DNA of 19,711 bases, taken from positions 1 to 19,711 of the forward strand of contig NGZR01000020.1 of assembly GCA_002197995.1 (NCBI GenBank). Direction: 5' to 3'. This stretch comes from Gaeumannomyces sp. JS-464 (lineage: Eukaryota; Ascomycota; Sordariomycetes; Magnaporthales; Magnaporthaceae). The notes beneath the pieces are model-generated. The model was not told where the DNA came from and made no database searches. It saw only the letters and a program-made list of their open reading frames with translations. The stretch's first letter is position 1, and each line of letters begins with the position of its first letter. Positions 1-19,711 of the stretch are shown in pieces. The translations under genes were made by a program, and so were the position numbers.

Positions 1-162
1 GAAAACAGTAAAAACGTAAGTGAGAGTAAGTAGAAGTACAGTGTAGGTAGTGACAGAAGGTAGGAAAAGGTACGTAGGGTGGTACAGTAAGAAGTGCAGG
101 TCGGGTCAAGCAAGTGTGTCAAACAAGTAGGCGTGTAGTCAAAAAACGGTGTCGTGAGGTAA
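1..162 (+). CDS. Intron-encoded endonuclease, C-terminal fragment (NUMOD-type helix-turn-helix)
   Basis: In the collapsed reading, frame 1 is open from the window edge to TAA at 159-162 and gives 43 residues without a slip. The core reads V-G-K-V-L-G-V-H-K-N-A-V-G-Q-A-I, followed by N-N-R-L-I-K-K-R. This is the pattern of the short DNA-binding helix-turn-helix repeat (NUMOD1/IENR1 type) that closes many GIY-YIG and HNH homing endonucleases of fungal mitochondria. It binds the intron homing site while the missing N-terminal catalytic domain cuts. The 5' part lies outside the window, so the catalytic class is unknown. It must belong to an intron of rnl upstream of the first exon seen here. Confidence 0.8.
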
Positions 163-299
163 CAAAAAAAAAGTAAAAGTGGAAGTAAGTAAGTGTCAGT
201 GGTGAGTGTAACGTAAGTGCAGTGTAACAAAAAAGAAAGAGAGGTAAACAGTAAAGTGTAGTAGTGTAGTCGTGGTAAAGTGGAGTAGGTGTAAGTGTG
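163..299 (+). other. Tail of an upstream rnl intron
   Basis: This is AT-rich, non-coding sequence between the stop of the first ORF and recognisable rnl. It contains poly-A stretches and no group I core motifs. The exact 3' splice site of this upstream intron is not visible to me. The boundary at about 299 is a guess based on where rRNA-like sequence begins. Confidence 0.4.
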
Positions 300-458
300 A
301 AAACGTAGTGTGAGAAAAGTCGTCAGCGTGTGTGCCGTAAGTGTAGAGTGGGCGTAAGAGAGTAAGTCGTGGTAGTCGGTCGCAAAGAGTAGTCCGAAGA
401 GGTGTAGTGGGTAAGGTAAGGTGAAAGACAAGTGTCGTGACGTAGGAGTAGCGTGGGT
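300..458 (+). rRNA. rnl: Mitochondrial LSU rRNA, exon around E. coli 700-800
   Basis: In the collapsed reading, 365-458 matches the helix region just before E. coli position 800: a hairpin like the one near 740-750, then a stretch equivalent to the bacterial GGTGAAAGGCCAATC segment, ending in GATAGCTGGT. The rRNA should continue with a T-rich, GAAA-containing segment, but it is interrupted at 458/459 by a group I intron, and the expected continuation resumes at 2209. The last exon base is T, as usual for a group I 5' splice site. The 5' limit at about 300 is uncertain. Confidence 0.75.
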
Positions 459-1007
459 AAAAAGTGTGAGTGGTAAGCAGGTCGTGTGTAGTGGCCAGCG
501 TGGGTAGGCGGACAAGCCGTACGTAGTAAACCAGTCAAAGTGTGACGGGAAAGCCCGTAAAGCGTAGTCGTCAACCAAACAAGAGGTGGGTAACACAGTC
601 GTGTGGTGGCACAGGTGTAAGTGACGTCGGTGGGTAAGGGTAAAAGTAGAGAGTAGAGTGGTACGAAAGGAAAGTGGGGTAAGTCCGCAGCCAAGGTACC
701 GTGGTAAAGTGTAGTGTAGTGTAAGTAAGTGAGGGTAGTGCAGGTGTCAGTCGACGTAGAGTGGTGGTGTGACGGTGTAGTGTGTGTCAGTAGCGGTGTG
801 TAAGAGTAGTAGGTCAAGCCGTCACCCGAAAGGGGTGCAGAAGTAAGTGTAAGGTAGTGTGTAAGTCGGTAGTCAAGTAGTGTGTAAAAGTGTAGCAGTG
901 TGTCGGTGTGTGTAGTAGCGTGTGCGCAGGTCAGTAGGGTAGTGTAGTAGTAGTCGTAAGGACGCGTGGTAAGTGTAGTACCGTGACCCGTGTGTGGGTG
1001 TAGGGGT

Positions 1008-1041
1008 GTACGAGTGTAGGAGGTACGTCCGTAAGTCGGTA
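1008..1041 (+). repeat. Perfect 26-nt palindrome inside intron 1 (collapsed)
   Basis: After collapse this reads TACGATTAGGAGT followed at once by its exact reverse complement. It continues into a TACTTCGTAC unit typical of the hairpin family dispersed elsewhere in the window. The symmetry is invisible in the raw bases because the inserted Gs lie on one strand only. Confidence 0.8.
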
Positions 1042-1152
1042 CGTGTCGGTACGTCCGGTACGGAAAAAGTGTCGTAGTCGGTAAGTAGTGGTGTAACGCG
1101 TAAGTACGCGACAGTGGTAGTGTCAGTAGTGAAAGACGTAAAGTAAGTAAAA

Positions 1153-2083
1153 AGTGAAGTGTGTACCCAACGAAAGTGTAAAGTGTGGTAGCGTGTGTGT
1201 AGTAAGTGGTGGCGTGTAGAGTAAAGCGTCGGTAGTAGTGTAAAAGAGAACAAAAAGTAGGGCAGCGTGGTAGTAGTCGGTGTGTAGGTGTAAGTAAAGT
1301 GGTAAGTAAGTAAAACGTGTAGTGTAGGGTAGGTACGTAGTAAACGTGGTGTCAAAGTAGAGTGTGTACAAAGTAGTGTGTCAAGTGTGTAAAGGTAGTG
1401 TAGCGTGAAAGAAGAACACCGTAGTGTCAGTCGTGTGCGTCGTGTGTGTAAAGGTAGTGGAGTGTCGAAAACGTGTGTACGTGTGTAGAAAGTACGTGGA
1501 AGTAGTGTGTGAAGAAGGGTGGTAAACCCGTAGTAACAAGAGAACAGGTAGTGTAGTGTGTGTGTCGTAAGGTGTAAAGCCAAGTAGTAAGTAGTGTGTG
1601 TAGGTACAAGCGGGGTGTCGTGTGTGTAGGAGTAGTAAACAGTACGTGAAACGTACGTGTGGAGTGTGTCGTGTGTAAAAGTGAAAGAAAAGGTGTAGGT
1701 GAGTAAGTACAAAAAAAAAGTGTGGTCGTAGTAGCGTGCAACAGGCCGAGGTACGTGTACAGAGGAAGAGTAAGCAAGAGTGTGTCGTGAGTGCCCGGTA
1801 AAGGGTGTGTAGTACGTGTCAGCGTGAGACGTCGGGTCGTAAAAGTAGTCAGTCGTGCGGCGTAGTAGCGTCGTGTAGAGGGTGGTGTACGTGGTGAGTA
1901 GGTGTAAAAAGTGGTAAAGTACGTAAGTGAAAAGGTGTAGAAGTGTGCAAGGTGTGTAACGTGAGTGCAGCCAAAGTACAGTAGGAGGTAAGGTAGACCA
2001 GCAGGTAAGAAAAGTAGTAGTGTGAGTACGTAAGTAAAGTGTAAGTACAAGGGTAGTACCGTGTGTAGTGTAACGTAAAGTAA
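1153..2083 (+). pseudogene. GIY-YIG homing endonuclease ORF with frame slips
   Basis: The collapsed ORF starts M-N-L-P-N-E-I-K and reaches TAA at 2080-2083. The GIY-YIG nuclease domain is recognisable. A-V-Y stands in for the GIY tripeptide (about 1262-1280), Y-L-G for YIG (about 1316-1331), the conserved Arg is in N-R-F (about 1355-1368), and the metal-binding Glu is in R-E-Q-Y-Y-F (about 1536-1560). Next come L-K-P-x-Y-N-I-L and L-G-Y-K-H-T-E-T (a NUMOD3-like repeat), and a closing helix-turn-helix Y-I-G-V-S-R-P-A-V-R-K-Y-I. Such enzymes cut intronless alleles and spread the intron. At least five frame slips, near 1375, 1505, 1585, 1680 and 1780, break the frame, mostly at A/T runs. They may be sequencing errors rather than true decay, so the pseudogene label is provisional. 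Confidence 0.75.
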
Positions 2084-2208
2084 AGTACGTGTAAGTGTAG
2101 TGTCGGTGTAAAGTGGAGTAGCAGTAAGTAGTAAGTAGCGTAGTGTGTAGGGAGAAGGACCCGTAGCGTGTGTACCGTGTAAAAGGGTGTAAAGGGGTCA
2201 GTAACGTG

Positions 2209-2536
2209 GTGTGTCGTGCGAAACCGTAGTAAAAGGTAGGCAAGTGTGTGTAAGTAACAGTCGTGTAGCAGGGTACAGAACGTGTAAGTCGTCAGACAAG
2301 AGTGGTAAAGTGTGTGTCAGTGGTGAAGTGTAAAGGTAGGTGCGTCGTGTAGCGTGTACGTAGGGTAGGTGCGTGTCGTGTAGTGCACAGTGAAAAGTAC
2401 AGTGTGTAGTCGTGTGTAGTAGAGTCGGGGGAGTCGGTGAAGAGTGTGTGTAGTCGGGTGAGGTAGTGGTAGACGTCGGAAGTGGCAAAGAGTGAAGTAG
2501 TGTGAAGTGAGTCGGACAGTAGAAGTGAGTAAGGGT
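2209..2536 (+). rRNA. rnl: Mitochondrial LSU rRNA, exon around E. coli 800-960
   Basis: The collapsed sequence resumes exactly where the previous exon stopped: T-rich bases, then CTGCGAAACCTATAAAAGTA, equivalent to the bacterial CCGAAAGCTATTTAGGTAG segment. It continues with a counterpart of the GGTAGAGCACTG helix and a diverged stretch up to about 2536. The 3' boundary is placed after AAGGT because the next group I core begins about 50 collapsed bases later. It is accurate only to a few bases. Confidence 0.78.
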
Positions 2537-4369
2537 GTAGTAAGTACAGCCGTAGTGTGGTAGAAGGTGAACCGTGTCGTGCGTAGTAAACCGTGTCAAA
2601 GTGTGCGGGAACACCCGTAAAGCAAGTCAGTAACCAAGGTAAGAGGTAGGTAAGTACAGTCGTGTAGTGGCGTCAGGCAAGTGACGTCGAGGGTAGTGGG
2701 TAAAAGTCAGTGAGTGTGAGTGGTACGAAAGGTGTAAAGTGGGCAAGTCCGCAGCCAAGCACGACGCAAGCGTCGGTGGTGCAGGTGTCAGTCGACGTAA
2801 AGTGGTAGGGTGTGGCGCAAGCGTGTAAAAGTAGTAGGTCAGGCCGTCAGTCCGAAAGGAGTGCAAGTGGCAAGTAAAGGTAAGTGTGTGTAGTGTGTGT
2901 AGTGTGTAGTAAGTGTGTAGTAGTAAAGTAGCGTGTAGTGTGTCAGTAGGTAACGTAGCGTAGTGTGTAGTAGGCCGGGTGTCGTGGCAAAAGACGTGTA
3001 AGTACGACAGGCGACGTACCGTGTGTCGAAGGGGTAACGGAGTGTGTAAACGGGCGTGACACCCGTGGGTGTAAAGTAGGTGGTGTAAGTAGGTGTAAGG
3101 GTACGTGCAAGAAAAGAGTGGTGTGCAAAGCGTGTGCGTAGTGTAAGTGTGTGTGTGTAAGTAGCCGGACCGTGGCGGCGACGCGTAGGTAAGTCCGAGA
3201 GAGTGAGGTAAGTGGAGTGTCCAGTGTACCCAGTGTGTGTGGGTGGGTAGTGAGACAAACACGTAGGCGTGGTCGGCCGTGTGTGTAAGTGTAGTAAGTA
3301 ACAGTCAAAAGGTCACAAAAAAAGTGTGTGTAGTAGTAAAGTAACGGGTGTAGGTAGCGTCCAAGTAAAAAGCGTACGGCAGTGTAGTGTAAAGTAAAAA
3401 GACGTAGTAGTGTACAGGAGTAACAAAGGGTAAACCGTGGGTAGTGTGTAGTCGTAGAAGTGTAAGTAAAGTGTAAAGTAAGTAAGTGCGTAGTGGTAGG
3501 GTAGGTGGAGTGTAAAGTGTGTAGTCACAAAGAGTGTGAGGTGAAGTAGTGTACAAGTCAAAGGTGAAGTGTAAAAGAAAGTGTCGTAGGCCGTCAGTGC
3601 GTGCGTGTACGTGTAAAGTAGTGGAGTACGAAAAGTGTGTGTAGTAAGTAGAAAGTGTGTAGAAGTAGTGTGCCGAGCAGAGTGAGCGTGTAGTGTAAAA
3701 GAGAACAGGTAGTGTACGTGGAGTCGTAGTGTAAAGTCCGTGAAGTAGTAAGTGGTAGTGTAAAAGTAGTGCGTAGTGTCGCGTAGTGTAGGGGTAGTAA
3801 ACAGTACGTCCGTGAAAAGTAGTAGCGAAGGTGTGTAAGGTGTAAAAAAGGTGTCACAGGAACGTGTAAGGAGTAGTAGTGTAGTCGTGTCAGGTGCACG
3901 TGTAGGAAAAGAAGGTGTAGGTCAAGAAACGTAGAGAGTAAAGTGTAGTCGTCGTGTGCGTACAGTCGTAACGTAGTAAAAAAAAGTAACCCGTCGTGTG
4001 TCACCGTGAAGCGTGTGTAGCGTAAGTAGTGTACAGCGTAAAACGTACAGAACGGTGAAGGAGGTGGCGTGGTGTACACGTGTGTAAAGTACGTCAAACG
4101 TAACGAAGAAGTGTAGAAGTGTCCGTACGTGTGTAACGTAAAGGTGTGCGGAAGTAGTGTGTGGGGTAGTAAAAAGACAAGCGTAGTACGAAACGCAAGT
4201 AAAGTAGAGGAAGGTCGTGTGTTAAAGGACGTGTGTAGTCGGTGGTGTCAGTAAAAAAAGGTAGGCAGGTGTGTAGTACACAGTAAGGTACGTAAGTGTA
4301 GTAAGTAAGTAAAGTAAAAGTGTACGTGTGTAAGTGTGTGTTAAGTCGTAGTAAGGTGTAAAGGTCAGG
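2537..4369 (+). mobile_element. Second group I intron in rnl (before E. coli 1000) with GIY-YIG ORF
   Basis: The core is very similar to intron 1. P3/P4 (CAAATTGCGGGAACACCC) lies near 2596-2617, Q (AATCCGCAGCCAAGC) at 2745-2760, R (GCAGTTCATCGACTAAA) at 2781-2802, and S (AAAATATAGTCAGGCC) near 2826-2845, followed by a stable GAAA-capped hairpin. A non-coding segment of about 500 raw bases (2880-3380) contains a strong hairpin GCTATTAATTTTTTAATAGC near 3130-3165. The GIY-YIG ORF follows. The 3' end is placed after CAGG at about 4369 from the resumption of rRNA. The similarity to intron 1 in core and ORF layout suggests a common ancestor or duplication. Confidence 0.85.
3380..4317 (+). pseudogene. 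GIY-YIG homing endonuclease ORF with frame slips
   Basis: The collapsed product shows K-G-K-P-G-I-Y-L (GIY, about 3425-3454), M-Y-V-G-S-G-L (YIG, about 3488-3510) and the catalytic Arg in L-S-Q-R-L (about 3518-3538). Then follow L-K-Y-G-Y-E-N-F, the Glu-bearing R-E-Q-Y-Y-L-D-L-L (about 3700-3728), L-G-Y-K-H-T-P-E-N (about 3783-3815, NUMOD3-like), S-Q-E-T-R-D-K-L-S-L, and a helix-turn-helix near 4140-4200 ending R-G-S-L-L-K-G-L-Y-R-V-H-K-K. From 3700 to 4290 the frame is almost continuous. The N-terminal third has slips, including a lost T in the codon I read as TGA (Trp) after I-Y-L near 3454, and a lost A near 3572. The start codon is not certain. It is typical of fungal mitochondrial intron endonucleases and may be functional if the slips are errors. 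Confidence 0.78.
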
Positions 4370-5726
4370 GTGTAGTAGTAACCGTGGTGGTCGTAAAGTG
4401 GAGTAGCGTCAGTAAAGAGTGTGTGTGGGCGTAGTGTGTAGGGAGTAAGAGTGTAAGCGTGTGTAGGTACAGTAAGCGTGTAAAGTGTGTCCGGTGGTAG
4501 TGGTCAAAAGGGAAACAGCCCAGAACAAGGTGTAAGGGTGTCCAAAAGTGTAGTGTAGTGTAAGGTGAAAGTGTAAGAAGGTGTGTGTAGTGTGTAAGGT
4601 CGACAAGGAGAGTAGGCGTGTGGAGGCAGCCAGTAAGTGTGTAAAGACCGTCGGTAACAGAGCGTGTGTGTGTAGGTGTGTAAAAGCAGTCGAAAAGTAG
4701 TAACGGAGTCGTAAAGTAAGTAGTACCGAGTACCGTGTGGTCCAGTAAAGTGTAAGAGTAAGTGTGTAGTGTAGTGGTGTAGTGTGTAGTGGGGTAGCAG
4801 AACGTGGGGTGTGTAGTAGTGAGAGTGTGTGTGTCGTGTATGTGTGTAAGAAAAGTGTAGTAAGTAGTAACGTCAAGGTGAGTAAGTGGTGACAGTGAGG
4901 TAACGTAAAAGAGGTGTGTAGTACGTCGTCGCCGTGTAAGCGTGTAGTGGCGTAAGGTAAAGGTAACGGCCGTCGTAAGGTGTGTGTGTGTAACCGTGAA
5001 GGGTGTAAAAGTGAGTGAGAAAAGTCGTGTAAAGTGTAAAAAGACAACAGTGTGTGTGTAAGGTGAAAAGGTGGTGCAGGAAAGTAGTGTGTGTAAGTAG
5101 ACAGTAGTGGACCAAGTAAACGTAAAAAGAGTGAAGAAAAGTAGTAAGGTGGTCAACCGGTACCGTAGTAAGCGTGCAACAAGGTAAGCGTAGGTAGAGG
5201 AGTACGAAGGCGGTAAAGTGAGAGTAACAAGTCAGTAAAGGAACGTCGGCAAAAGTAACGTACCGGTAACGTGTAGGGAGTAAGGAGGGCGTCAGTGTAG
5301 TGTCGTGTGAGTGTAAGTAGTCAAGGTAAAAAGGAAGAAGCAGTGAAAGTAGGTGGTGTGGTACGACGTGTGTGTAAGTGTAAAACAAAGCACGTGTGCA
5401 AAAAGAGTGAGTAAAGTCGTAAGGTAGTGTGTGTGAAAGTCGTGCCCGAGTGGTCGGCGTGGGTGTAACGAAGAGTAACGTAAAGTGTGTGTAAAGGGTG
5501 TGTGGGTGGTGTGCAGGAAACCCCGAGTGAAGTGGCGGCCGTGTAACGGTGAGGGTCCGTAAGGGTAGCGAAAGTGCCGTGTGGCCGTGTAAAGTGCGGG
5601 TCGTGTGCAGTGAAGTGAGTGGTAACGAGTACAACAGCGTGGTCGTCGTAGTGAGTGTGACGTCAGGTGAAAGTGTGGAAGTAACGTGGTGCAGAGTACA
5701 GGTGTACCGTCGTAGAGTAGACGAGA
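4370..5726 (+). rRNA. rnl: Mitochondrial LSU rRNA, exon from about E. coli 1000 to 2059
   Basis: Many universal LSU landmarks are visible after collapse: AGGGAAACAGCCCAGA (about 4508-4524), GGAGGCAGCCATAATTTAAAG (the GTPase-centre region, 4622-4645), TATGGGTAGCAGAACG (about 4785-4805), GACATGAGTAACTAAA, the ATACGAAGGCG segment near 5201, and CGGCAAAATAACTACCGTAA (about 5245-5272). They are followed by the segment equivalent to bacterial TGCAACTGTTTA and by TGCCCGATGTCGGC. Near 5526-5578 come GAATGGCGGCC and GGTCCTAAGGTAGCGAAAT (E. coli about 1900-1955), then GACTCAGTGAAATTG (about 5658-5680). The exon stops inside the peptidyl-transferase ring sequence at the 2059 position, where a group II intron begins. 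Confidence 0.95.
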
Positions 5727-6544
5727 GGTGCGACGTAGCGTAAGGTGCGTGTAAAACAAGTGGTGGGTGAAAACCCACCAGAGTAACCCGGTGTAGTCGT
5801 GAGCGTGTAGTGGTGGCAGTGCAGTGTAAGAGGTAAGTGTGTGTGTGTGTGTGGTGGTGAAGCCACAAAAGTCCGTGCCGTGTGTGTGTGAGTAAAGGGA
5901 GGGTGAGCGTAGTAGTACGTAGTGGAGTAACGTAAAGGTGAAGTCGTGCGGTCGTGAAGCGGTAGAGTCGTAGAGCGTCGTAGTGTGTCGTCGTACAGGT
6001 AGAAAAAGTGTGTAAAAAGTAGAGGTGTGTGGTGTAAGTGTGGTAGTAAACAAGGTGTCGTCGGTGTGTGTGTAGTGTAAGTGGGGTCGTAAGTAGTGTA
6101 ACCGTACGGTAGTAGCAGGAGTCCGTAAAGGTAAGTAAGTGTAAGGGTGGTGTGTGTAAGGTAAACGTAGGGTAAGCCCCAGTAGGTGCCCGTGTAGTAC
6201 AGCGGTAGTAAGGGTGTGTAACGTGGTGAAGGTGTAAAGTAGTACAGTGTGGGGGTAAAGGAGTGCGTCGTAAAAGCGAAAGGTGTCGTAGTGTGGTAAG
6301 TGAGTAGAAAGTAGGGTGTAGTGTGACGTAAGTGTCGAAAGAAGTGCGTGACGTGTAGAGGTGGGGTGGTGTGTAGTGTAAACGTAGTAACGGTAAAAGT
6401 GTGCAGTGAGTGTGGGTACCGGCGTGTGTCGTGTAAGGTGAGTACGCAGTGTGTGTAAGTGGTAGCGTAAGAAAGAGGCAGTGGCGTCCGGTAGCGTGTG
6501 TGTAAAGAGTGTAAGAAAAAAAAACGGGAGTAGAGAAAAGACAC

Positions 6545-7808
6545 AGTGACAAACCCAAAGTAACAGTGTCAAAAGTAGTCAACGAAAAGGTGTGGAGTCC
6601 GTAGTGGTGAGGTAACAGGGAGTGGTAGACGCGGAAGGGTAAGTGTGTGTAGCAGTAGTAGTACAACGAAAAAACGGAGTAAAGTGTGTAGGTGCGTAGT
6701 GTGTGTAAAGGTGTACACAGAAAAGGTACGTGTCACGTAAAGTAGTGGTGTAGGTAGCGTGTGTGAAAAAGTGTGTGTGTGTAAGTGTGCGGTAACAGTA
6801 GGTGTAGTGTGAGTAAGTAGGGAAACAGAGTGGAGTAGTAAAGTGTGTAACGGTGTGTCGTAAAGTGTGGTCGTGAGTGTGTAGTGTGAGTGTAGTGTAG
6901 TACCGTCAGTGTGTGAGTAAAGTGTCCGTGTGTAGGTGGGTGTCGTAAGCAGTGTGTGGAGTGTTGTGTGTAAGTGTGTGTAAGAAAGCGTAGTGTGTGT
7001 ACGTGTAGAAAAAGCGGTAGCGTGGCGTCCGAAGGAGGAAAGAACAAAGAGTAAGAGTGTCGTGTGTGTAGTAAAAACAGGTAGTGAAGTAAAAAAGAGT
7101 CGTGTAGTGAAGAGCGTGTGAAACGTAGTCGTAAGTAAGTGTAGTCGTGTGTGTAAGTGTGTACAGTCCGTGCGGTGAGGTACAGGCCGTGTGTGGTGGA
7201 GTGGGTGAAGGGTGGTGTGTGTCAAGTGGTAGAAGTAGCCAACACGTGGTAAGGTAGAAACGTGTGTACGTGTACAGTGTAGGTGGTGTAAGTCCGTACC
7301 GTGTAGAGAGTAGCGTCAAAACAGGTCACGAGTGGTGGAAGGTGTGTGAAGTGCGTAGTGTAAAGAGGTAGTGTGTCGGGTGGTAGGGTGTAGTCGTAAA
7401 CCGTAAGGTAGTGAGTAGTGTAAGAGTGTGTAAAGTGAAGTCGTAAAAAGTCGTCGGTAGAGGTGTAAGTAGAGTAAGTAGTGTAAGTCAAGAGGAGGGT
7501 AGTGTAGTGTAAGTGTGTGTGGTGTAAAGTACCCCGTGTAGTGTAACGTGTCAAAGAAGTGTGTAGAGTAGTGTCAGAGTGTGAAAAGTGTAAGTAAGTA
7601 GAGGTGTAAGAAAAAAAGTGTCACAGTCGGACGTCCCGAGGGGAAACAGGAAAGTGAGTAAAGTAGTCAAAGTGTAGGGTAGTGAAGTAGCAAGTAGAGT
7701 GTAGTGTAGAGTACGTAAGTAGTAAGTCAAGTAGTAGTCAGAGTAAAGTGTAAAACGTAAGTGTAAGTCAGTAAGTCCACACGGTGTGTCAGAGGCGTGA
7801 GGAGGTAG
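6545..7808 (+). CDS. LAGLIDADG homing endonuclease in a group II intron
   Basis: The collapsed ORF opens M-T-N-P-N-N-I-Q-N-I-N-E-K and ends at TAG (7805-7808), about 300 residues. The first motif, W-V-T-G-I-V-D-A-E-G-N-F-S-I, lies near 6607-6660 and the second, W-V-Q-A-F-V-D-G-E-G-V, near 7165-7215. Both keep the acidic residue before the last Gly that binds metal, so a single-chain, two-motif nuclease is expected. Downstream Y-P-L-L-T-S-K-N-L-D is the usual C-terminal domain signature, followed by R-T-P-E-G-K-Q-E. TGA encodes Trp in the first motif. Two to four slips occur at T runs (one at the first motif). Its probable role is to cleave intronless rnl and move its host intron. It may also act as a maturase, but that is speculation. 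Confidence 0.8.
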
Positions 7809-7947
7809 CACAGGTAGTGGGTGTGGTAGTAGTCGTGGTGTAGGGTAGTGTCGTAGTGTGGTGTGTGTGTAGTGAGGTCCACGTGTGAGTCAGGTGGCAG
7901 TAGTGTGGTAGGTGTAGTAGGTGTAAAGTAAAAAGTAAAGTGCGTGT

Positions 7948-7989
7948 GAGCCGGTAGTGCGAGTGAAAGGTGTGCACGGTACGGGTGTC
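7948..7989 (+). ncRNA. Group II intron domain V
   Basis: The collapsed 34-nt hairpin has the strongly conserved lower stem (GAGCCGTATG with CGTACGGTTC), a small internal bulge and a GAAA tetraloop. This is the catalytic metal-binding domain of group II introns and the clearest proof of the intron class. Domain VI with the branch-point A follows up to 8041. Confidence 0.9.
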
Positions 7990-8397
7990 GTGTAGAGGGG
8001 GAAAGTGTGTGTAGGTAAGTAAAACGACCGTAGTCGTCGACAGACCCGTAGTGCAGCGTGTGTACGTACGTGTGTATGTGGTGTAGTAGTGTAGGTTAGG
8101 TAGGTGAACGTGTGTGTAGAAGTAGTAAGGGTAAGTGTAAGTGCGAGTGAAAGTGTGAAAGTACCGTGTGTAGTGTGGAGTACGTAGTAGTGTAGTGCGG
8201 TAAGCGTCGTGTAGTGTGTAGGGTGTAGTACAAGTGTGACGTGTGTAAGTGGGTGTGGTAGTAGTAAGTAAGACCCGTGGTAAGAGGGGAACAGTGTGCG
8301 TAGGAGACAGGTGTGTAGTGCGGGGCACAGACCCCACAAAGAGGTAAAGTGGGGTGGTGGTCCAACAAAGTAAGTGTGTACAGTCGTAAGTGTAGGT

Positions 8398-8442
8398 GTG
8401 CGTGTCGTGACCCGTGTGTGGGGTAGAAAGTAAGCAAGCGTA
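8398..8442 (+). repeat. Hairpin repeat copy 1 in rnl variable region
   Basis: Collapsed, this reads GCTTCTGACCCTTTGGGTAG followed by AAATAAGCAAGC. The CTGACCC/GGGTAG and GCTT/AAGC arms can pair. A second, nearly identical copy lies at 8641-8686. It sits in an expansion segment of the LSU rRNA where an insertion is tolerated. Confidence 0.8.
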
Positions 8443-8640
8443 GTCGCGTCGACAGTAGAGTAGTACGGAAGTAGTGACAGAGCGTGGTCGGTGTAGGGTG
8501 GTAAACGTAAGTAGTGTAGTGTAGTGTAGTGTGTAAGTAAGTAAAGTAAAGTAGTGTAGTGTGTAGTGTAGTGTTGTGTGGTGTGTGGTAAGTGTGTAAC
8601 AGACGTGTAAGTGTAGTGGGGTGGTGTCGTACGAAGGTAC

Positions 8641-8686
8641 GCGTGCGTGTCGTGACCCGTGTGTGGGGTAGAAAGTAAGCAAGCGT
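8641..8686 (+). repeat. Hairpin repeat copy 2 in rnl variable region
   Basis: About 43 raw bases are identical to the copy at 8398-8442, which indicates recent duplication or insertion of a small mobile palindrome within the rRNA expansion segment. Confidence 0.8.
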
Positions 8687-9338
8687 ACGTAAAGTAAGCA
8701 ACCGTGTGTAAGTCGTGTAGGTAAAAGTCAAAGTGGTAAGTAGTGTGGTGTGTGTAGTGTGTGTAAGTAGTAAAAGTAGTAGTGTGTGTAGGGTAAGAGG
8801 TGTGTAAGTGTGTGGTGAAAGTGTAGGTAGTAGGTGTAAGTAAGTAGTGTAGTGAAGTAGTAGTGTCGTAAGTAGTGTAGTGTAGTAGGTGTAGTGTAGT
8901 AAAGTGTAGTGTGCGTACCGTCGTACGTGTCGGTAGGGTACGTAAAAGACGTAGCAGTAAGTAAGTAAGTGTGTAGTAAGTAAAAGGTGAGTAGTACAGT
9001 AGTAGACCAGGGTGTAACGGCGTGTAAGTCGTGTGCCGTGTACGTGGTGTGTGAGTGTAACAACAAAGTCGTGTACAGGTCGCGGTAAGCGGGGCAGTAG
9101 GAGTCACGAGACACAGTAAAGGAAAGGGTCGTGTGGAGTGTGTGTGTGGAAAAGCGTACGCGTAGGGAGTGGTGTGTGTCCGTGTCAAGTGGTGTGTAAG
9201 TAGTAGAGTAGTAGTAGCGTGTAAGCGTGTGTAGTAGTAGTAGTAAGTAGTAAGTAGTGAGTAGTAGTAGTGGGGTCAAGTGTCAAGAAGTGTACGTGTG
9301 TAGTGCAGTGCAGTACGTGTCGTACGGAGGTAGCGAAG

Positions 9339-9410
9339 GTACGTGCGTGGTGCGTGTCGTGTAGTGTCAGTAGCAGCAACCAAAGGGGTACGCGTACGTC
9401 CGGTAGAAGG
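9339..9410 (+). repeat. Dispersed hairpin element, copy 1 (inside omega intron)
   Basis: Collapsed, it reads TACTGCTGTGCTTCTTATTC, then ATAGCAGCAACCAAAGGGGT and ACGCTACTCCGTAGAAG. The GCTG/CAGC arms and the TACT...GTA part form two small hairpins. Close relatives stand at 13497-13567, 13571-13648 and 14702-14779 in tRNA spacers. Confidence 0.8.
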
Positions 9411-9652
9411 TAGGTAAGCACAAGTACGTGTAGGTAGGTAGTAGCAAGGTGTAAAGAAAACGTGAAGCGAAGCGTGTAGTCGTGTAACAGTAAGTAAGTA
9501 AGTAAGAGTAAGGTACGGTGTCAACGACGTAGTAAGGTGAGGTAAGTGGTGTAACAAGTAAGTCCGTGTGTAAGTAAAACCCAACAGTGTGTGTGTGTGT
9601 GTACGTGGTGTGTAGTAAAGTGTGTAAAGTAAAGTACAAAAGGAAAGTGTGT

Positions 9653-11474: not shown

Positions 11475-11486
11475 AGTGTGTGTAGT

Positions 11487-11897: not shown

Positions 11898-12465
11898 AAC
11901 AGGCGTAAGTGTGTGCGCAAGAGTGGTGCGAAAGTGACGTGCGCGGGTGTGGCACCGTCGAGTGGTCGGCGTGTAACGTGTAGTCCGTCAGTGGACGCAG
12001 AAACGTAGTGGTAGGGGTGCGACGTGGTGTCGGTCGAGTGTAAAAAGGTGTACACGAGCGTGGGGTGTAAAGTACGGTCGGTGAGACAGGTAGTGGTGTG
12101 TCGTAGTCGTGTCGTAGAGGGAAGTGTAGAAGTAGTAAGTAAGGAGGTAAGTCGTAGGTACGAAAGGAACAGTGGGGACGTGGTGTAGTGTCGTACGAAA
12201 ACGGTGTGTGGTAAGTGTGTGTAGTGTAACCGTAGTGGGTGTGTACCGTGGTGTGGTGTGTAGTGGTACCCAAGTAGTGTAAGTGTAGTGTAGTAGTAAC
12301 AAACAAGTGTGTGTAGTAGTAGGGAGTGTGTACGTGTGTCACGTGTAAGGTAACAGTGAGTAGCAGTAGGCAGTGGCAGGGAAGCGTAAGGTGTAGGTCA
12401 AAGAGTAAGGTGGTGTGAAAGCAGTAGTAGACACGAAGCGTGTACCGTGTAAGAGTAGTGTGTCG
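11898..12465 (+). rRNA. rnl: Mitochondrial LSU rRNA, 3' exon (E. coli 2450 to end)
   Basis: It begins AACAGGCTAATTTGCGC and shows TTGGCACCTCGATGTCGGCT (about 11948-11975, the peptidyl-transferase region). CGAGCTGGGTTAAATACGTC (about 12055-12080), GTGAGACAGT and the sarcin-ricin loop AGTACGAAAGGAAC (12154-12171) follow. After an AT-rich expansion at about 12195-12350 the 3' terminal helix region reads GGCAGGGAAGCTAAGTTAGT and GATAAGTGTTGAAAGCATAT (about 12375-12428), the counterpart of the bacterial AGCTAAATGCGG and AAGTGCTGAAAGCATCT. The mature 3' end is placed at about 12465 by analogy. Confidence 0.92.
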
Positions 12466-13162: not shown

Positions 13163-13255
13163 GGGAGTGTAGGTCGGTCGTAGGTGGAAAGACAGTAGCG
13201 TCGTGTGTCAAGTGCGTGAGGTCGCAGGGTGTCAACGTCCGTGCCGTAGGTCGTA
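13163..13255 (+). tRNA. trnE: tRNA-Glu(UUC)
   Basis: The anticodon loop is CTTTCAA (anticodon TTC). The T arm GCAGG-TTCAACT-CCTGC is perfect, and the D arm is GTCGTCTAGTGGAAAGAC. The acceptor GGGATTA pairs loosely with TAGTCTA, probably because of one missing base. Confidence 0.85.
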
Positions 13256-13256
13256 A

Positions 13257-13349
13257 GTGCGGAGTGTAGTGTGGTAAAGTGGGTGTAACAAGTGTGTGAC
13301 GTCAGTGACCAAAAAAGTAGTAGGGTGTCAAAGTCCGTAGTAGTCCGCC
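13257..13349 (+). tRNA. trnM: tRNA-Met(CAU), initiator-like
   Basis: The anticodon loop is CTCATGA (CAT). The T arm is ATAGG-TTCAAAT-CCTAT, and the acceptor is GCGGAT with ATCCGC. The first position (T) faces C, a mismatch of the kind that marks bacterial-type initiator tRNAs, so this is the likeliest formyl-Met initiator of the three CAT tRNAs. It abuts trnE. Confidence 0.85.
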
Positions 13350-13496
13350 GTGCCGTACGAAGGTACGAAGGTACGTGTCGGTACGTGTCGGTACGTGTCG
13401 GTACGTGTCGGTACGTACGTAAGTACGTAAGTAAGTAAGTACGGTACGTACGTAAGTACGGTAGCAAAAGCACGCGTGTGTAGTGAAAGTAAGCAA

Positions 13497-13567: not shown

Positions 13568-13570
13568 TAA

Positions 13571-13648
13571 GGTACGTGCGTGGTGCGTGTCGTGTAGTGT
13601 CAGTAGCAGCAACCAAACCAAAGGGGTACGCGTACGTGTCGGTAGAAG
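13571..13648 (+). repeat. Dispersed hairpin element, copy 3
   Basis: It is nearly identical to copy 1, but the AACCAAA stretch is extended to AACCAAACCAAAGGGG. It directly follows copy 2, so the two form a local tandem. Confidence 0.8.
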
Positions 13649-13849
13649 CGCGTGCGTGTCGTACGAAGGTACGTGTCGCACGAAGGTAGGTACGTGTCGG
13701 TAGGTAAGCAGCCGTGTAAGTAAAGAAGTAGTGCGTGTGTGTGTAGTAGACGTGTGCAGTGGGTGTACGAAGGTAAGCGTGTACGTGTCGGTAACGTAGT
13801 AGTAGGTGTGGTGCGTGTACGTAAGGTAAGCAGCGTGTAGTGTGTAGGT

Positions 13850-13947
13850 GAGGCGTAGTAGCGTGTAAGTGTGGGTAAAGCAGTACGTGCGTCAGTAACA
13901 GGTACGTGTACGTAAGGTGGTGTCAAGGTCACGTGTGTAGCCGTGTA
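13850..13947 (+). tRNA. trnM: tRNA-Met(CAU), second copy
   Basis: The acceptor GAGGCTA pairs with TAGCCTT. The D arm is AGCTTAATTGGTAAAGC, the anticodon loop CTCATAA (CAT), and the T arm AAGTG-TTCAAGT-CACTT is perfect. The fully paired acceptor suggests an elongator tRNA-Met. Confidence 0.88.
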
Positions 13948-13948
13948 A

Positions 13949-14051
13949 GTCCGAGGTGAGTGAAAGTGGGTAGACAGTAACAAACGTGTAAAAGTGTGTG
14001 GTAGGGTGTAAGTAGCCAGTAAAGGGTGTCGAGGTCCGTGTGTGTGTCGGA
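13949..14051 (+). tRNA. trnL: tRNA-Leu(UAA)
   Basis: Its acceptor TCCGA pairs with TCGGA. The D arm contains GATGAAATGGTAGACAT, the anticodon region AACTTAAAATTTG gives TAA, and the variable arm is long, as in class II tRNAs. The T arm contains AAAGG-TTCGAGT-CCTTT. It begins one base after the preceding tRNA. Confidence 0.87.
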
Positions 14052-14701
14052 GTAGCGTACGCAGTGGGAGAGAGGGTAGTGTGTGAGTGTACGTAGGAGT
14101 AGTAGGGTAGTGTGTAGTCGTAAAAAGTGTGTGTAGTCACCAGGTGTGTGTGTGTGTGTAGTGTGTGTGTAGTGTGAGTGTGTGAGTGTGTGGGTGTGTG
14201 GTGCGTACGAAGGTAAGCAGTAGAGTGTACCGGTACGTGTACGTACGAAGGTAGTGAAGTGTAGTGCGTAGCGTACGCACGTGTCGGTAAGGAGCAAGCG
14301 TAAAGCGTACACGTAAGTAAGAAGTAAGTAGGTGTGGGCCGTGGCGTACGTAGTGAAAGTAAGAAGGTACGTAGTGTACGTCGTGTGTGTGTGTGTGTAG
14401 GTACGTGTCGGTAGGTGAGTGGTAAGGTAGTGCAGTGGTCGTACGTGTCGGTAGGTGGTACGGCCGTACGTGTCGTGCGTGCAACGGAGGTAAGAAAGCA
14501 GCGTACGTGTCGGTAGTGCAGGGAACGTGTGTAAGAGTAAAGTACCCGCCGTAGGTGTAACGGAGTGGTAGGTGCGTGTACGTGTCGTAGTGTAAAGTAA
14601 GGGGGCGGTACGTGTCGGTAACACGTACGTGTCGGTAAGTACGCGCGTGTAGTGTCAGTAGTAAGCACACGTACGTAGAAGGTAAGCACACGTACGTAGA
14701 A

Positions 14702-14779
14702 GGTACGTGCGTGGTGCGTGTCGTGTAGTGTGTCAGTAGCAACCAAACCAAAAGGGTCAGCGTACGTGTCGGTAGAAGG
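14702..14779 (+). repeat. Dispersed hairpin element, copy 4
   Basis: TACTGCTGTGCTTCTTATTT, then CATAGCAACCAAACCAAAAG and CTACTTCGTAGAAG. It shares the extended CCAAA form with copy 3. Confidence 0.8.
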
Positions 14780-14842
14780 TACGTAAAAAAAAGTACCGGG
14801 GTGCGTACCCCGTGTGGGGGTGTGCGTGTCGCGTGGCAGGTA

Positions 14843-14914
14843 GCGCGTGTACGTGCGTGTCGCAGTGAAAGTAGGTAAGCGCGTGTACGTGCGTGTCGCA
14901 GTGAAAGTAGGTAA
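14843..14914 (+). repeat. Two tandem 36-base units
   Basis: The raw units 14843-14878 and 14879-14914 are identical, and a third truncated unit starts at 14915. Each collapses to GCGCTTACTGCTTCGCATGA plus AATAGTAA. With the next GCGC, the GCGCTTACT and AGTAAGCGC ends form an inverted pair, so each unit plus boundary can make a hairpin. Confidence 0.85.
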
Positions 14915-14926
14915 GCGCGTGTAGCG

Positions 14927-15022
14927 GGGGAAAGTAGGTAGTAAGTGGGGTAGGTAGTAGCAAGTGTGTGTGCAGTAGTGTGGTGTGTGGTCCGGGTGTC
15001 GAGTGCCCGGGTGTGTCGTCCA
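14927..15022 (+). tRNA. trnA: tRNA-Ala(UGC)
   Basis: Its acceptor GGGGAAA pairs with TTTCTCC. The D arm is TAGTATAATGGGTAGTATA, the anticodon loop TTTGCAT gives TGC, and the T arm is CCGG-TTCGATG-CCGG. The third truncated copy of the 36-base repeat abuts its 5' end. Confidence 0.88.
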
Positions 15023-15060
15023 CAGTAGTCGTGGTGTCAGTCGTAGTCCAGTGTCAGTGT

Positions 15061-15157
15061 GCGTCAGTGGTAACGTCAAGTGTGGTAGAGGTGAAAGTAC
15101 GTGAAGAGTAGTGTGTGTGGTGTAGTAAGGTGTCGAAGTCGTGTAGTCGTGTGGGCA
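15061..15157 (+). tRNA. trnF: tRNA-Phe(GAA)
   Basis: The acceptor GCTCATG pairs with CTTGGGC, using wobble pairs. The D arm is AACTCAATTGTAGAGT, the anticodon loop ACTGAAGAT gives GAA, and the T arm is ATAAG-TTCGAAT-CTTAT. Confidence 0.87.
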
Positions 15158-15181
15158 AAGAGTGTCGTGTAAAGTAGTAAG

Positions 15182-15268
15182 GGGTAAGTGAGTGGAAGTG
15201 GGTAGACAGTGAAGTAGTGTAGGGTGGTGTAGTGTGTGTAGTCCGGTGTCAACGTCGGGGTGTACCGT
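15182..15268 (+). tRNA. trnL: tRNA-Leu(UAG)
   Basis: Its acceptor GGTAA pairs with TTACC. The D arm contains GATGGAATGGTAGACAT, as in the other tRNA-Leu, and the anticodon region ATTAGGT gives TAG. The T arm is TCCG-TTCAACT-CGGG. The variable region looks short for a leucine tRNA, which may reflect lost bases. Confidence 0.75.
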
Positions 15269-15618
15269 GTAAGTGTAGTAGGTCGTAGGAAGTGTGTGTG
15301 TGTAGTCGTAGTAAAGTCCGTGTACAGTGTGTAAGTGTAAAGTCAGTGCGTGTAGGTACGTGTCGTACGAAGGTAGCGTGACCGTGTGTGGGTGTGTGGG
15401 TGTGCGTAGTGAAAGTAAGAAGCACAGCAGGTACGTGTCGGTACGTGTCGGTACGTGTCGTAAGTACGGTACGTGTCGTAAGTACGGTAGCGACGTCGGT
15501 ACGTGTCGTAAGTACGGTAGCGACGTCCGGTACGTGTCGTAAGTACGGTAGCAAACACAAAAGTAAGGTGAGTAAAGTAGAGTAGACGTGTGTAACAGTG
15601 TAAAAAAACAAGGTGAGA
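15269..15618 (+). repeat. Spacer with short tandem repeats between trnL and trnQ
   Basis: No gene is visible. After an AT-rich start (to 15350) comes TACGAAGTAGC, then three tandem TACTTCG-type units (15431-15460) and three longer tandem units TACTTCTAATACGTAGCGAC (about 15469-15553). The rest is AT-rich. Confidence 0.8.
15469..15553 (+). repeat. Three tandem units of about 30 raw bases
   Basis: Each unit collapses to TACTTCTAATACGTAGCGAC plus TC(C)G. The last is truncated after GTAGC. Within each unit TACTTCTAA resembles a degenerate partner of the TACGAAGTA motif. Confidence 0.85.
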
Positions 15619-15714
15619 GTAGTGGTGTGGTAGACGTAAGGGGTAAGGTCAGTAAGGTGTGTGTGTGAGTACGTGTACAGTAGTGAGGTGGTGTCGAACC
15701 GCGTCCAACAGTAA
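15619..15714 (+). tRNA. trnQ: tRNA-Gln(UUG)
   Basis: The acceptor TATGTTG pairs perfectly with CAACATA. The D arm GACTAAGGGTAAGTC, the anticodon loop TTTTGAT (TTG) and the T arm GAGTG-TTCGAAC-CGCTC also pair well. Confidence 0.9.
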
Positions 15715-15719
15715 GTGCC

Positions 15720-15816
15720 GGAGGAGTAGTAGGTGTCAAGTAGGGTAGAACGGTCGTGGTGTCGGTGGCGTCAGAAGGGTGTCGTCGTGGTGTCAAGGTC
15801 AGAGGTAGTCCGTCCC
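15720..15816 (+). tRNA. trnH: tRNA-His(GUG)
   Basis: The acceptor GGAGGATA is matched by TATCCTCC. The D arm is AGTTCAATAGGTAGAAC, the anticodon region TTCGTGGC gives GTG, and the T arm is CTCTG-TTCAAGT-CAGAG. All helices pair well. Confidence 0.9.
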
Positions 15817-15921
15817 GTGTAGGTGCGTGTCGTGTAGTAGTCCGTGTGTGCGTACGGTAGTGTAGAAGGTACGAAGGTAAGCAAGCCGTAGGTAAGTAGT
15901 GTGTAAGTGGTACGTAAGTGT

Positions 15922-16009
15922 GTGCCGTGTGTAGGTGTTAAGTGGGTAGAACCGGTAGTGTGTGTGTAAAAGTACGTGTGTGTGTAGGTGTCGAAGTCGT
16001 GGAAGGGCA
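15922..16009 (+). tRNA. trnK: tRNA-Lys(UUU)
   Basis: The acceptor TGCCTTT pairs with AAGGGCA. The D arm is AGTTTAATGGTAGAAC. The anticodon stem GTATT/AATAC closes a loop read as TTTAA, two bases short. A TTTTTAA loop with a shortened T run gives anticodon TTT. The T arm is TTTAG-TTCGAAT-CTGGA. The identity rests on repairing the T run, so it is less certain than the others. Confidence 0.7.
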
Positions 16010-16169
16010 AGAAAGTGGTAAGTAGTGTAGTAGTGTAGTAAAAAAAAAGTGTACGTGCGTGTAAGTGTCGTAGCGAAGGTACGTGTCGGTAGTAAAGGTA
16101 AGCACGAAGGTAAGCAGGTAAAACGTAGTAGTGTAAGTACGTAGTAAAGTAAGTGTGTAAAGAGTAGGT
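16010..16169 (+). other. AT-rich spacer between trnK and trnM
   Basis: No gene is visible. It contains a poly-A run and a TACTTCGTA unit followed by AAGTAAGCACGAAGTAAGC, another degenerate member of the hairpin family (about 16058-16120). Confidence 0.6.
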
Positions 16170-16261
16170 GTAGGGGTAGGTGTGTAAGTAGGGTGTAAAA
16201 CGTGTGTAAGTGTGTCAGTACGGTGTAAAAAGTGAGAAGTGTCGAGTGTGTCGTCCCCGTA
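16170..16261 (+). tRNA. trnM: tRNA-Met(CAU), third copy
   Basis: The acceptor TAGGG pairs with CCCTA. The D arm is AGTTTAATAGGTTAAAACT, the anticodon region TTTCATACG gives CAT, and the T arm GAGAA...TTCTC lacks one loop T. It lies 12 raw bases before the nad2 start, the usual place of a trnM in Pezizomycotina. A lysidine-modified tRNA-Ile cannot be excluded from sequence alone. Confidence 0.82.
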
Positions 16262-16273
16262 GCGTAAGTAGTA

Positions 16274-16781: not shown

Positions 16782-17195
16782 GAACAGAGTAAAAGTGTAC
16801 GGGAGTAAACGTGGTCAAACGTCCGGGGAACGTCCGTAAAGCGTGTGTGTGAGTACCAAAGTCGTGGAAAACAGTGTGTGTCCGCGGGTGGGGTGTAAGT
16901 GTAGTGTCAGTGGTAAGGGTAACAAGGTCAAAAGAGTGAGTGTCGTGTGTAGTGTGTACGTGTAAGTGTGAGGTAGTAAGTAGTGTGTAGTGAGAGTGGT
17001 GTGGTCGTCAGGAAGTCCGTCAAAGGTAGGTAGCGTACGTAAGTGTGTCAGTGTAAAGCGCAAGCAAGCGTCGTCGTGTGTGAAAAAGTGGACAAGTCGC
17101 GGAGTCGTAAGGTCAAGTGAGTGCGTGTAAAAACAGTGTAGTGGTAAAAGAGCAACGAGGTAGACGGCAGGTGTGACGTAGTGTAAGGTCAGTGT

Positions 17196-18583
17196 AGTGC
17201 AGTGTGTAGTGTGTAAGGGTGGTACGTCGTGTAGAAGAGTGTCGAAAGAAGTACGTGTAGTCGTGGAGTCCCGTCGTCAGGTGCGTGCGGTGTGGTGGTA
17301 ACGCGTAAAGAGTACAAAGTGTGTGTAAAGTAAACGCGTGTAGTAGTGTCAGTCAACAGCAAAGCGTGTAACACAGAAAACCGTGTAAAAGGTGGTGTAA
17401 AGTCGTGTGTGGTAAAAGAGTGGTGTGTGTGTGTAAAGTCCGTGTGAGTGTGTGTAACCGGGTGTGTGTACCGAGTGGAGAGTGGTGTCAGTGTGTGCGT
17501 GGTCGTCGTAGTAACGTAGAAAAAAGAAGGAAGTAGGAGTGAAAAAGTGTGGTGTCCGTAGTGGTGTGTACGTAGTGTGGGCGTAGAGTAAAAAAGAGTG
17601 TGTAGAGTCGTGTGTAGGTGCAAAGTGTAAAGCGTGTGTGTGTAAAAGTAGGGTAAGTAGTAGTACACAAGGTACGTAAAGGAAGTAGGTAGTAGTGTAG
17701 TACAGGTAGGGGTCGTGGTAAAAGACAGTAGAAAAGGTACAGTGTGTGTACCGTCAGTGTGTGAGTAAAGTGTCCCGTGTGTAGGTGTACGTAAAAAGTG
17801 TCAAAGAGTGTGTGTACAGTGTAGTGTGTAAGCAAAGTAGGTACGTGTCGTGTAGTGGGTAAAAGGAGAACACAAGACGTCGTACCGTGGTGTGTAGTGT
17901 AAAAAGTGTGTGTCGTCAGTGTAAAAGGTGTAAGTGTAAAGTAAAGGAGTGTACCGTGCAGCAGGTAAAAGAAGAAGTGTGTCCGTGAGTAGTGTCAACC
18001 GTGCGTAGTGTGTACCGTGAGCGTGTAAGTAGCGTGGCGCACGCCCCGTGTAGGTGTGTGTAAGTCCGTAAGTGTGGGTAGCAGGAGTGTGTAGTCACGT
18101 GCAGAAGGTGTCGTGTGTGTGTGTAGTCGTCCCGTGTGTAGTGCAAAGTGAGAAAAGAAAAGCAGGAGTAGTGCGTAGTAAGGTGTGTAGCGTGTGTGTC
18201 CGTGTAAGCCAACAGTCAGTAGAGAGTAGTGAAGTGTACGTAGATGGACGTGTGCGTAGTAGTGTCGTGTAGAAGTGCGGAAGTAGGTGAGAAGTAGTCA
18301 GTCAAAGTCGAGACGCAGCGTGAAGTGTAAGTGTCGTAACCAAAGTCGTGAAGAGTGTGTAAAGTAAAAAAGTGTAAGTCCCGCGTAGTGTGAAAAAAGT
18401 AGTAAGTGTGTAGCGGGGTAGTAAAAGTGTAGTGTAAGTGTGTGTGAAAGAGTGTGTAAAGAGTGCAGTCGTGTGTAGTGTAGGTACAAAAGTAAAAGTG
18501 CAGTGTGTAACGTCCGTGAAGGGTGGTAGCAGTGTAAGTAAAAACAAGTAAAGAGTGCGAGTGGTAGTAAAGAGTAAGTGTAA
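17196..18583 (+). CDS. LAGLIDADG homing endonuclease in nad2 intron 1
   Basis: The collapsed ORF has an N-terminal leader (about 80 residues, R-R-F-E-R and similar). The first motif is L-N-P-W-F-L-T-G-F-T-D-G-D (about 17425-17478), followed by C-S-F-A-V-S-I-T-R-K-K. The middle domain contains L-P-H-F-D-K-F-P-L-V-T-K-N. The second motif is N-P-N-W-V-A-G-F-I-T-A-E-G-S-F-F (about 18066-18122), then S-Q-H-H-R-D-M-E-L-L-D and L-T-P-E-G-V-A-L-I, ending at TAA (18580-18583). Acidic residues are present at the active position of both motifs (D and E). TGA encodes Trp in the first motif. Four or more slips occur, including a lost T just after the first motif. A GC-rich insert lies at about 18023-18056. 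The start at 17196 is the first plausible ATG. Confidence 0.8.
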
Positions 18584-18589
18584 GTGTGT

Positions 18590-18790
18590 AGTGTGGTGGT
18601 GCGTCCGGTGTGTCGGTAAGGAAAGCGTAAAACCACGTGCGTGTACGTGTGTCGGTAGCGCGTGTCGTGTAGTGAAGGTACGTGGTGTACGAAGGTAAGG
18701 AAAGCAGGTAGGCGTCCGCCGTGCGGTAGCGCGTACGCGCGTACGCGCGTACGTGCGTAGCGAAGCAACCCCAAAGGGGGTAGCACACAA
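18590..18790 (+). repeat. GC-rich hairpin cluster in nad2 intron 1
   Basis: Collapsed features include GCTTACTTTCGTAGCGC, TTACGAAGTAAGG, a run of GTAGCGCTACGCGCTACGCG (alternating self-complementary CGC/GCG steps), TAGCGAAGCAACCCCAAAGG and GGTAGC. The AACCCCAAAGGGG part resembles the AACCAAAGGGG core of the dispersed hairpin element. No coding potential is seen. Confidence 0.75.
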
Positions 18791-18849
18791 AAGGTGTGTA
18801 GTGTGTAGAAGTGTGTGGTGAGAGTGAGGGAGTACCAACAAGTGTAACG

Positions 18850-19076
18850 CGTAAGTGTGTAGTGTGTGTAAGTGTACGTGGGTGCGTAGTGTGTGTGTGT
18901 AAGTGGTCAACGTAAGTGAGTGTGTAAGTGTCGAGTGTGTGTGTAGCAAGTAGAAGTGTACAAGTGTAGTGGTGTGGTAGTGTGTAGTGTAAGGTACGTA
19001 GTGTGTAGTAGAAACGTCGGAAGTGTGTCGTACGTACAGGAGGAGTGTAAGTGTGTAGTGTGTCGTAGTGTGGGGT
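18850..19076 (+). CDS. nad2: NADH dehydrogenase subunit 2, exon 2
   Basis: After joining to exon 1 the frame reads L-I-Y-F-L-I-T-G-A-I-F-L-M-S-T-N-D-L-I, then F-L-A-I-E-L-Q (the conserved Glu-bearing helix of Nad2), G/C-x-Y-L-L-S-T-I-Y-R-N-S-E and S-T-T-G-G-L-I-Y-F-L-L-G. It ends in T at 19076, where the next intron core follows. Two or three slips occur at T runs. The remainder of nad2 lies beyond the window. Confidence 0.87.
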
Positions 19077-19711
19077 GCCAAGGTGGAGGTGGGAGTCCCG
19101 TCGTAGTAGTGTGGTGCCAACGTAGTGTACCAAACGTCCGGGGACGCCGTGTAAAGCGTGTAGTGAGTACGTAAACGGGTGCGTGTGAAAAAGCAGTGTA
19201 GGTGGCGTGAAGTGTAAGTGTCAGGGTAGTAGGTAACAAGGTCAGTAAGAGTGAAGGAAACGTGAAAGTAGGGTAAGTCGCGGAGTCGTAAGGTCAAGGT
19301 GAGTAAGTAAAACAGTGTACGTGTGGAAAAGAGCAACGAGGTAAAGTGGGTAGGTAGTGGTGTGAGTGTAGTGTAACGTAGTGGTCAAACAGTAAGAGTG
19401 GTACGTCGTAAAGGGGTGTGTGAAAGAAACGTAGTCGTAACCGAAGGTCCCGTGTCGTAAACGAAAAAACCGTCGTGTGGTCAAGAGTGTGTGTAGTACG
19501 TACGTAGTCAGACAAGCGTCCCAGTGTGGTAAAGTGAAAGTGTGTAAGGTGGGTAAGTAAGTGTCGTGCGTGTGTGCAGTGTTGCGAACGTGTCGGTGTA
19601 GCGCAAGCGTGAAAAAACGCGTGTAAGTCCGTGTGAGTGTGTAGTCACAGGGGTGTGTACAGACGGGGAGGGGTACGTGTGTGTCGTAGTGTGGTAGTGT
19701 CGTAAAAAGTA
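19077..19711 (+). mobile_element. Group I intron 2 of nad2 (5' part)
   Basis: The core closely resembles that of nad2 intron 1: CCAAACTCCGGGGACGCCTT (about 19128-19152), AAAGCTTATGAGTAC-like bases, TAGTAACAAGTCATAAGATG (about 19228-19252), then TCGCGGATCTAAGTCAAGTG (about 19278-19300) and AAAGAGCAACGAG. An ORF starts at 19380. The 3' end lies outside the window. Confidence 0.85.
19380..19711 (+). CDS. LAGLIDADG homing endonuclease in nad2 intron 2, N-terminal part
   Basis: The collapsed ORF opens M-S-N-I-R-C-T-L-K-G-F-E-R-N-Y-L-T-E-V, a leader related to that of the ORF in nad2 intron 1. It continues R-F-Y-T-T-I-R-Q-A-P-I-V-N-E-I. A GC-rich hairpin stretch (about 19563-19620, CTGCTTTGCATTTGCGAAC and TTAGCGCAAGC) interrupts it, and at 19621-19680 the first catalytic motif appears: N-P-W-F-I-T-G-F-T-D-G-E-G-T-F-S-I, with TGA as Trp. 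It runs off the window end. Slips occur around the hairpin insertion. Confidence 0.75.

Follow-up and report, generated by a model that had tools for sequence, protein, structure and literature searches.

The window, by which we mean the whole stretch of DNA analysed here (contig C13, positions 1-19711, one of the 34 contigs of a 53 Mb genome), is a distorted rendering of ordinary DNA in which almost every T has received an extra G in front of it. This pattern is an artefact without biological novelty, and its most likely source is PacBio base calling. We consider it quite likely that the contig stems from a small part of the PacBio reads, where the caller had put a C behind each A; on the complementary strand, which is the one shown, this becomes GT.

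The window and its gene content

In the 19711 bases of the window T is preceded by G in 4748 of 4761 cases, and the 13 exceptions are divided between AT (4) and TT (9), with no CT at all, in agreement with the near-absence of these dinucleotides that had been claimed in the initial annotation. The pattern is present in each kilobase. When every GT is collapsed to T, 14963 bases with ordinary dinucleotide ratios remain; the observed/expected ratio of GT is then 0.96, and true GT must therefore have been turned into GGT. With ARAGORN 9 tRNAs are recognised in the window after the collapse and none before it, while five alternative collapse rules gave 0, 0, 0, 1 and 0 tRNAs and random deletion of 4748 G's gave none in 20 out of 20 trials. 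The initial reading of the window as GT written for T in ordinary DNA, with tRNA cloverleafs that appear after the collapse, was thus correct, and that DNA is probably organellar. In total, ARAGORN reported 39 tRNAs for 28 collapsed sequences, some of which overlap, and none for the raw letters of the same loci, the window not counted.

A cluster of tRNAs together with a piece of a LAGLIDADG homing endonuclease (Table 1) points to fungal mitochondrial DNA, which the window probably is, and the order of the tRNAs is one that we take to be typical of certain fungi. Among the further landmarks that had been proposed, one sarcin-ricin-like string appears in the collapsed window. Of the ribozyme cores, one string resembling group II domain 5 was found by string search, but the one group I string searched for was absent from the collapsed window. 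The raw window gave no Rfam match at gathering scores. The proposed protein frames stood only in part: out of eight collapsed protein pieces, one matched Pfam LAGLIDADG_1 (E 3.1e-7), one had an E of 0.075 and scored below the cut-off, and the other six had no Pfam match. Nad2 and Rps3 were not confirmed, as pieces of 24 and 70 amino acids gave nothing significant against solved structures (best E 0.69). The frames are broken because of indel noise, as can be seen from the comparison of the window with C18, a contig of the same GT type, where 2130 aligned columns at 96.8% identity contain 49 gap openings.

Many short palindromes, TACTTCGTAGTA and TACGAAGTACTTCGTA among them, can be seen by eye to recur in the collapsed sequence that separates the tRNA genes at 13773-16267. 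Units of this kind occur in some fungal mitochondrial spacers.

Table 1. Features of the window; positions refer to the raw letters, and the features marked as collapsed were found after GT had been replaced by T.
Feature	Position	Strand	Basis
Whole contig C13 in GT-for-T form	1..19711	+	14963 bases once GT is replaced by T
Stretch shared with C3 (opposite, AC type)	3..2725	+	Collapsed alignment 96.9%, 3 mismatches, 48 gap openings
Sarcin-ricin-like string of large-subunit rRNA (collapsed)	12156..12168	+	String search
tRNA-Glu and tRNA-Met (collapsed)	13164..13354	+	ARAGORN, mapped back; none in raw letters
Stretch present twice, in opposite directions, in fold-back C15	13773..19413	+	96.5% forward, 95.8% reverse
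tRNA-Met and tRNA-Leu (collapsed)	13848..14054	+	ARAGORN, mapped back
tRNA-Ala and tRNA-Phe (collapsed)	14927..15158	+	ARAGORN, mapped back
tRNA-Gln and tRNA-His (collapsed)	15619..15816	+	ARAGORN, mapped back
tRNA-Met (collapsed)	16164..16267	+	ARAGORN, mapped back
Stretch shared with C18 (GT type)	16968..19711	+	96.8%, 9 mismatches, 49 gap openings
LAGLIDADG homing endonuclease piece (collapsed)	18223..18479	+	Pfam LAGLIDADG_1, E 3.1e-7, passes cut-off

Two mirrored forms in one assembly

All 34 contigs were sampled, the window as a whole, 20 contigs by their first 10 kb and 13 by their first 1 kb. Judged by the sampled start, ten contigs are of the same type as the window (C6, C7, C8, C11, C13, C14, C17, C18, C20 and C28), and another ten show the mirror image, with a C after A (C3, C4, C5, C15, C16, C19, C22, C25, C26 and C27). 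Contig C9 is ordinary at its start and of the AC type further on. Where sampled, 11 contigs are ordinary, including all nine that are longer than 1 Mb, and C2 and C10 are partly masked, the readable part of the sample being ordinary. A GT-rich test pattern had 88 matches in the genome (38 forward and 50 reverse), compared to 0 and 1 for the same pattern written backward, and the matches listed were all in small contigs. In the faulty loci that were counted, 79 out of 47000 T's or A's break the rule. Loci that overlap, masked loci and the gradient of C9 do not enter this count, and neither does the start of C28, where 5 of 433 break the rule in the first 2.5 kb. Altogether 21 contigs with a total of 656 kb are affected, a figure that includes about 10.7 ordinary kb of C9 and contigs most of which were read only in part. 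The alignment of the window with C3 shows that both strand types can represent one and the same locus.

Some contigs have features of their own. The faulty C19 (C19:1-10000) has a higher GC content, and the part of it that was inspected after collapsing is crowded with short units that recur, for example GTGCAGGGTAGGTG; there is an rDNA match at C19:10517, and the faulty stretch around this weak match to the rDNA of C10 gave nothing at the Rfam gathering threshold. The small ordinary contig C24 (C24:1-1000) begins like the 2.7-Mb contig C32 (C32:1-1000), with 95.8% identity, 8 mismatches and 25 gap openings, and is perhaps a noisy duplicate of a chromosome end. In C21, an ordinary contig of 15 kb (C21:1-10000 sampled), there is a direct repeat of about 2.65 kb with 83.7% identity (276-2909 and 7173-9807).

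Ordinary copies of faulty loci

For three faulty loci an ordinary copy is present in the same assembly (C28 in C12, C16 in C10, and C3 in C9). The first 1 kb of C28, once decoded, matches the ordinary nuclear contig C12 with 98% identity over 843 of 843 bases, and the ordinary copy has an open frame of 817 amino acids, which we take to be PWP2-like. Over the first 2.5 kb of C28 the T's of the ordinary copy are written as GT in 432 of 448 cases, 13 are lost and 3 appear as G; the identity is 96.5% when collapsed, 81.9% in the raw letters and 73-82% with five other collapse rules. In the same way decoded C16 matches the ordinary rDNA of C10 (98.5% over 2110 bp, 7 mismatches and 16 gap openings), where the raw letters of C16 had no match at the threshold used, and in Rfam the ordinary stretch is recognised as eukaryotic LSU rRNA with 1150.8 bits. 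These copies bear out the earlier conclusion that the pattern is an artefact and not biology, and since one locus is nuclear and another is rDNA, the fault is not specific to mitochondria.

Could the letters instead be real, in DNA that the cell decodes by editing or by some reading rule of its own? The regularity of the pattern is all that speaks for such DNA, and as the assembly also contains faulty loci in ordinary form, two strand types for one locus and a gradient in C9 (see below), we reject this as next to impossible. If mitochondrial DNA had a modified thymine or adenine at which the instrument calls an extra base, the thymine having been suggested as a trigger in the initial annotation, this would agree with the mitochondrial look of most faulty loci, in composition and tRNAs. 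Such a miscall should however be restricted to modified DNA, and the fault is shared by a nuclear gene with an ordinary copy, by rDNA and by a probable synthetic adapter, while ordinary and faulty forms of one mitochondrial locus exist side by side; a modified base is thus an extremely unlikely trigger.

An ordinary copy of the window itself was not found with one collapsed piece of 916 nt, and a stretch of ordinary letters that is presumably cox3-like was matched only in C9, from which it was taken. That ordinary mitochondrial DNA was found only in C9, with these two pieces searched, fits a removal of organelle reads before assembly.

Gradual onset of the fault in C9

Contig C9 carries ordinary mitochondrial DNA from 10154 to about 10700, and the onset of the fault after that was measured per 100 bases against the fully faulty copy in C3, the shares leaving aside A's that are lost or turned into C. 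Up to 10700 the share of A's with an extra C is 0, 0, 0, 0.03, 0 and 0.07. In steps of 100 bases from 10700 it continues with 0.16, 0.42, 0.43, 0.40, 0.64, 0.64, 0.78, 0.70, 0.83 and 0.77, and the last values, up to 12600, are 0.79, 0.78, 0.81, 0.88, 0.77, 0.93, 0.92, 0.96 and 0.88. The share thus goes from 0-0.07 to about 0.9 between 10700 and 12300, or in about 1.5 kb. Early in the gradient the next base matters little, with an extra C in 29 of 56 cases before A, 20 of 46 before T, 6 of 16 before C and 24 of 41 before G. A drift within single reads would give such a gradient, but so might a consensus over a changing mixture of reads.

An error of consensus, polishing or file conversion that puts a G in front of every T, in reads whose calls were right, would give a rule as nearly perfect as that seen in the counted loci. 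A conversion would however be all or none for each record, and C9 grades from one state to the other; moreover, AC-type, GT-type and ordinary contigs coexist, and fold-backs are found among the faulty loci and not among the ordinary ones (see below). File conversion, one of the causes first considered for the window, is for these reasons rejected, and we regard any error after read calling as very unlikely. Base calling with one-sided reads had also been considered, and here the initial annotation was probably right; the 20 other affected contigs, the fold-backs, the probable adapter remnants and the probable form of the fault in the reads lay beyond what the window alone could show.

In the ordinary letters of C9:1-10000 two polymerase frames lie on opposite strands, one for DNA polymerase of type B (DNA_pol_B_2, E 1.6e-94), the other for a single-subunit RNA polymerase (RNA_pol, E 2.8e-81). 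This part resembles a linear mitochondrial plasmid and is joined to the mitochondrial DNA at about C9:10154, by either an integration or an assembly chimera.

Fold-backs and probable remnants of adapters

The 15 long faulty loci that were compared are the window and 14 stretches of 10 kb, with two masked loci left out. Five of them have palindromes with arms of at least 1 kb, as do 0 of 4 long ordinary loci; the window has none. A sixth fold-back was added by C25, and the turns are found in C6, C7, C11, C15, C20 and C25. Contig C20 is a single palindrome over 295-11281 of its 11282 collapsed bases, and C6 is palindromic over 1-9409 of the 11808 collapsed bases read. Both arms of C15 match the window and bear mirrored tRNAs.

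At all six turns the halves are separated by unpaired, pyrimidine-rich spacers, themselves in GT form, which are similar to the SMRTbell oligo. Only in C20 and C6 is this similarity clear by eye, and in the others it is weak when they are taken singly. The scores of the oligo at the turns of C6, C7, C11, C15, C20 and C25 are 27.5, 22.0, 21.5, 20.0, 34.0 and 21.5, and within each locus the fraction of positions outside the turn that score at least as high is 0, 0.039, 0.058, 0.049, 0 and 0.041, respectively. When positions were drawn at random, 0 of 20000 draws attained the joint score of the six turns, but when the oligo was shuffled, 53 of 3000 shuffles did so (8 of 2000 for the first five turns alone), and the opposite orientation of the oligo was at chance level (19181 of 20000). 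On the GT strand the oligo scores higher than its complement at 6 of 6 turns. A blind adapter scan of 23 faulty loci did not single out the turns: C20 had 34.0, places other than turns had up to 31.5, and in C4 an ordinary coding stretch gave 35.0 with the opposite form of the adapter, so that the scan does not decide the matter by itself and the comparison at the turns was preferred.

We think that the spacers are probably degraded SMRTbell adapters in the same faulty form as the inserts, in which case the reads would be PacBio reads and the AC strand the strand that was read. The ligated adapter has the form TTTTCC...GTTG (PMC5218489), and the C2 primer contains AACGGAGGAGGAGGA, which is complementary to it (PMC8864876), so a read should bear the complement of the oligo. 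With the oligo form favoured on the GT strand at every turn, the AC strand would then be the read strand. Given this identification of the adapter, on which both statements rest, each A in a faulty read is probably followed by a superfluous C, and the fault in C9 would increase along the direction of reading.

The same fault of base calling on another long-read platform, with fold-backs that are template-complement reads or palindromes from amplification, has some appeal, as the adapter remnants are weak one by one and amplification palindromes have been documented in long reads (PMC6218980). The unpaired pyrimidine-rich spacers at all six turns, each of them favouring the SMRTbell oligo over its complement, speak against it and we find it unlikely. 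PacBio reads with a missed adapter run along one strand and back along the other, just as the six palindromic contigs do, and are known to PBJelly as overlapping alignments on opposite strands (PMC3504050). What differs from the usual missed adapter is that the probable adapter here shows the same corruption as its insert, and that the fold-backs became contigs. Adapter sequence inside contigs is also the case treated by HiFiAdapterFilt, where adapters were matched at 97% or more (PMC8864876); the degraded adapter here would be missed by the thresholds stated there.

Proposed cause

Under the reading that we prefer, the base caller would, in a small part of the PacBio reads, have followed each A with an additional C, and the complementary strand, as in the window, would then show an extra G before T. 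The onset would lie within single reads. Corrupted adapters could escape adapter detection, and the reads would remain unsplit and give the fold-backs. Mitochondrial DNA and rDNA are present in high copy number, and a small share of faulty reads may suffice to reach the depth needed for assembly. Ordinary mitochondrial reads may have been removed before assembly, and faulty reads, which share no words with the filter, would have passed it. The nuclear gene in C28 could have been assembled by chance from a single faulty read or a few of them. As a guess at the physical cause, the tail of the A pulse may be called as a second, weaker pulse of C. Random insertion errors of single-molecule sequencing also add bases that are absent from the molecule, but the present fault always sets the same base next to the same base, with very few exceptions and whatever the context.

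A search limited to open papers and narrow terms turned up no published account of a PacBio fault of this kind, which is weak evidence. Prokaryote assemblies were scanned twice for 16S sites, in the sense-strand GT form only, and both scans gave 0; the second 16S pattern also gave 0 in the genome of the window, and the test is hence weak. A further pattern gave 0 in that genome as well.

Implications

The letters of 21 contigs are wrong where they were read, and they run the risk of being annotated as odd genes, simple repeats or contaminants. The fault can be detected with a test of one line, the share of T after G and the share of A before C. A nearly perfect rule in a contig, independent of context, can originate in the reads, and no error in a file is required for it. 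We tentatively suggest, as a possibility that falls somewhat short of being probable, that this is a PacBio failure mode so far undescribed, where part-way through a read a false C begins to follow each A until the rule is complete, and that such faults hide adapters, yield fold-back contigs and slip past organelle filters and contaminant screens, so that other public assemblies may hold such contigs unnoticed. The case is in any event useful as a warning.
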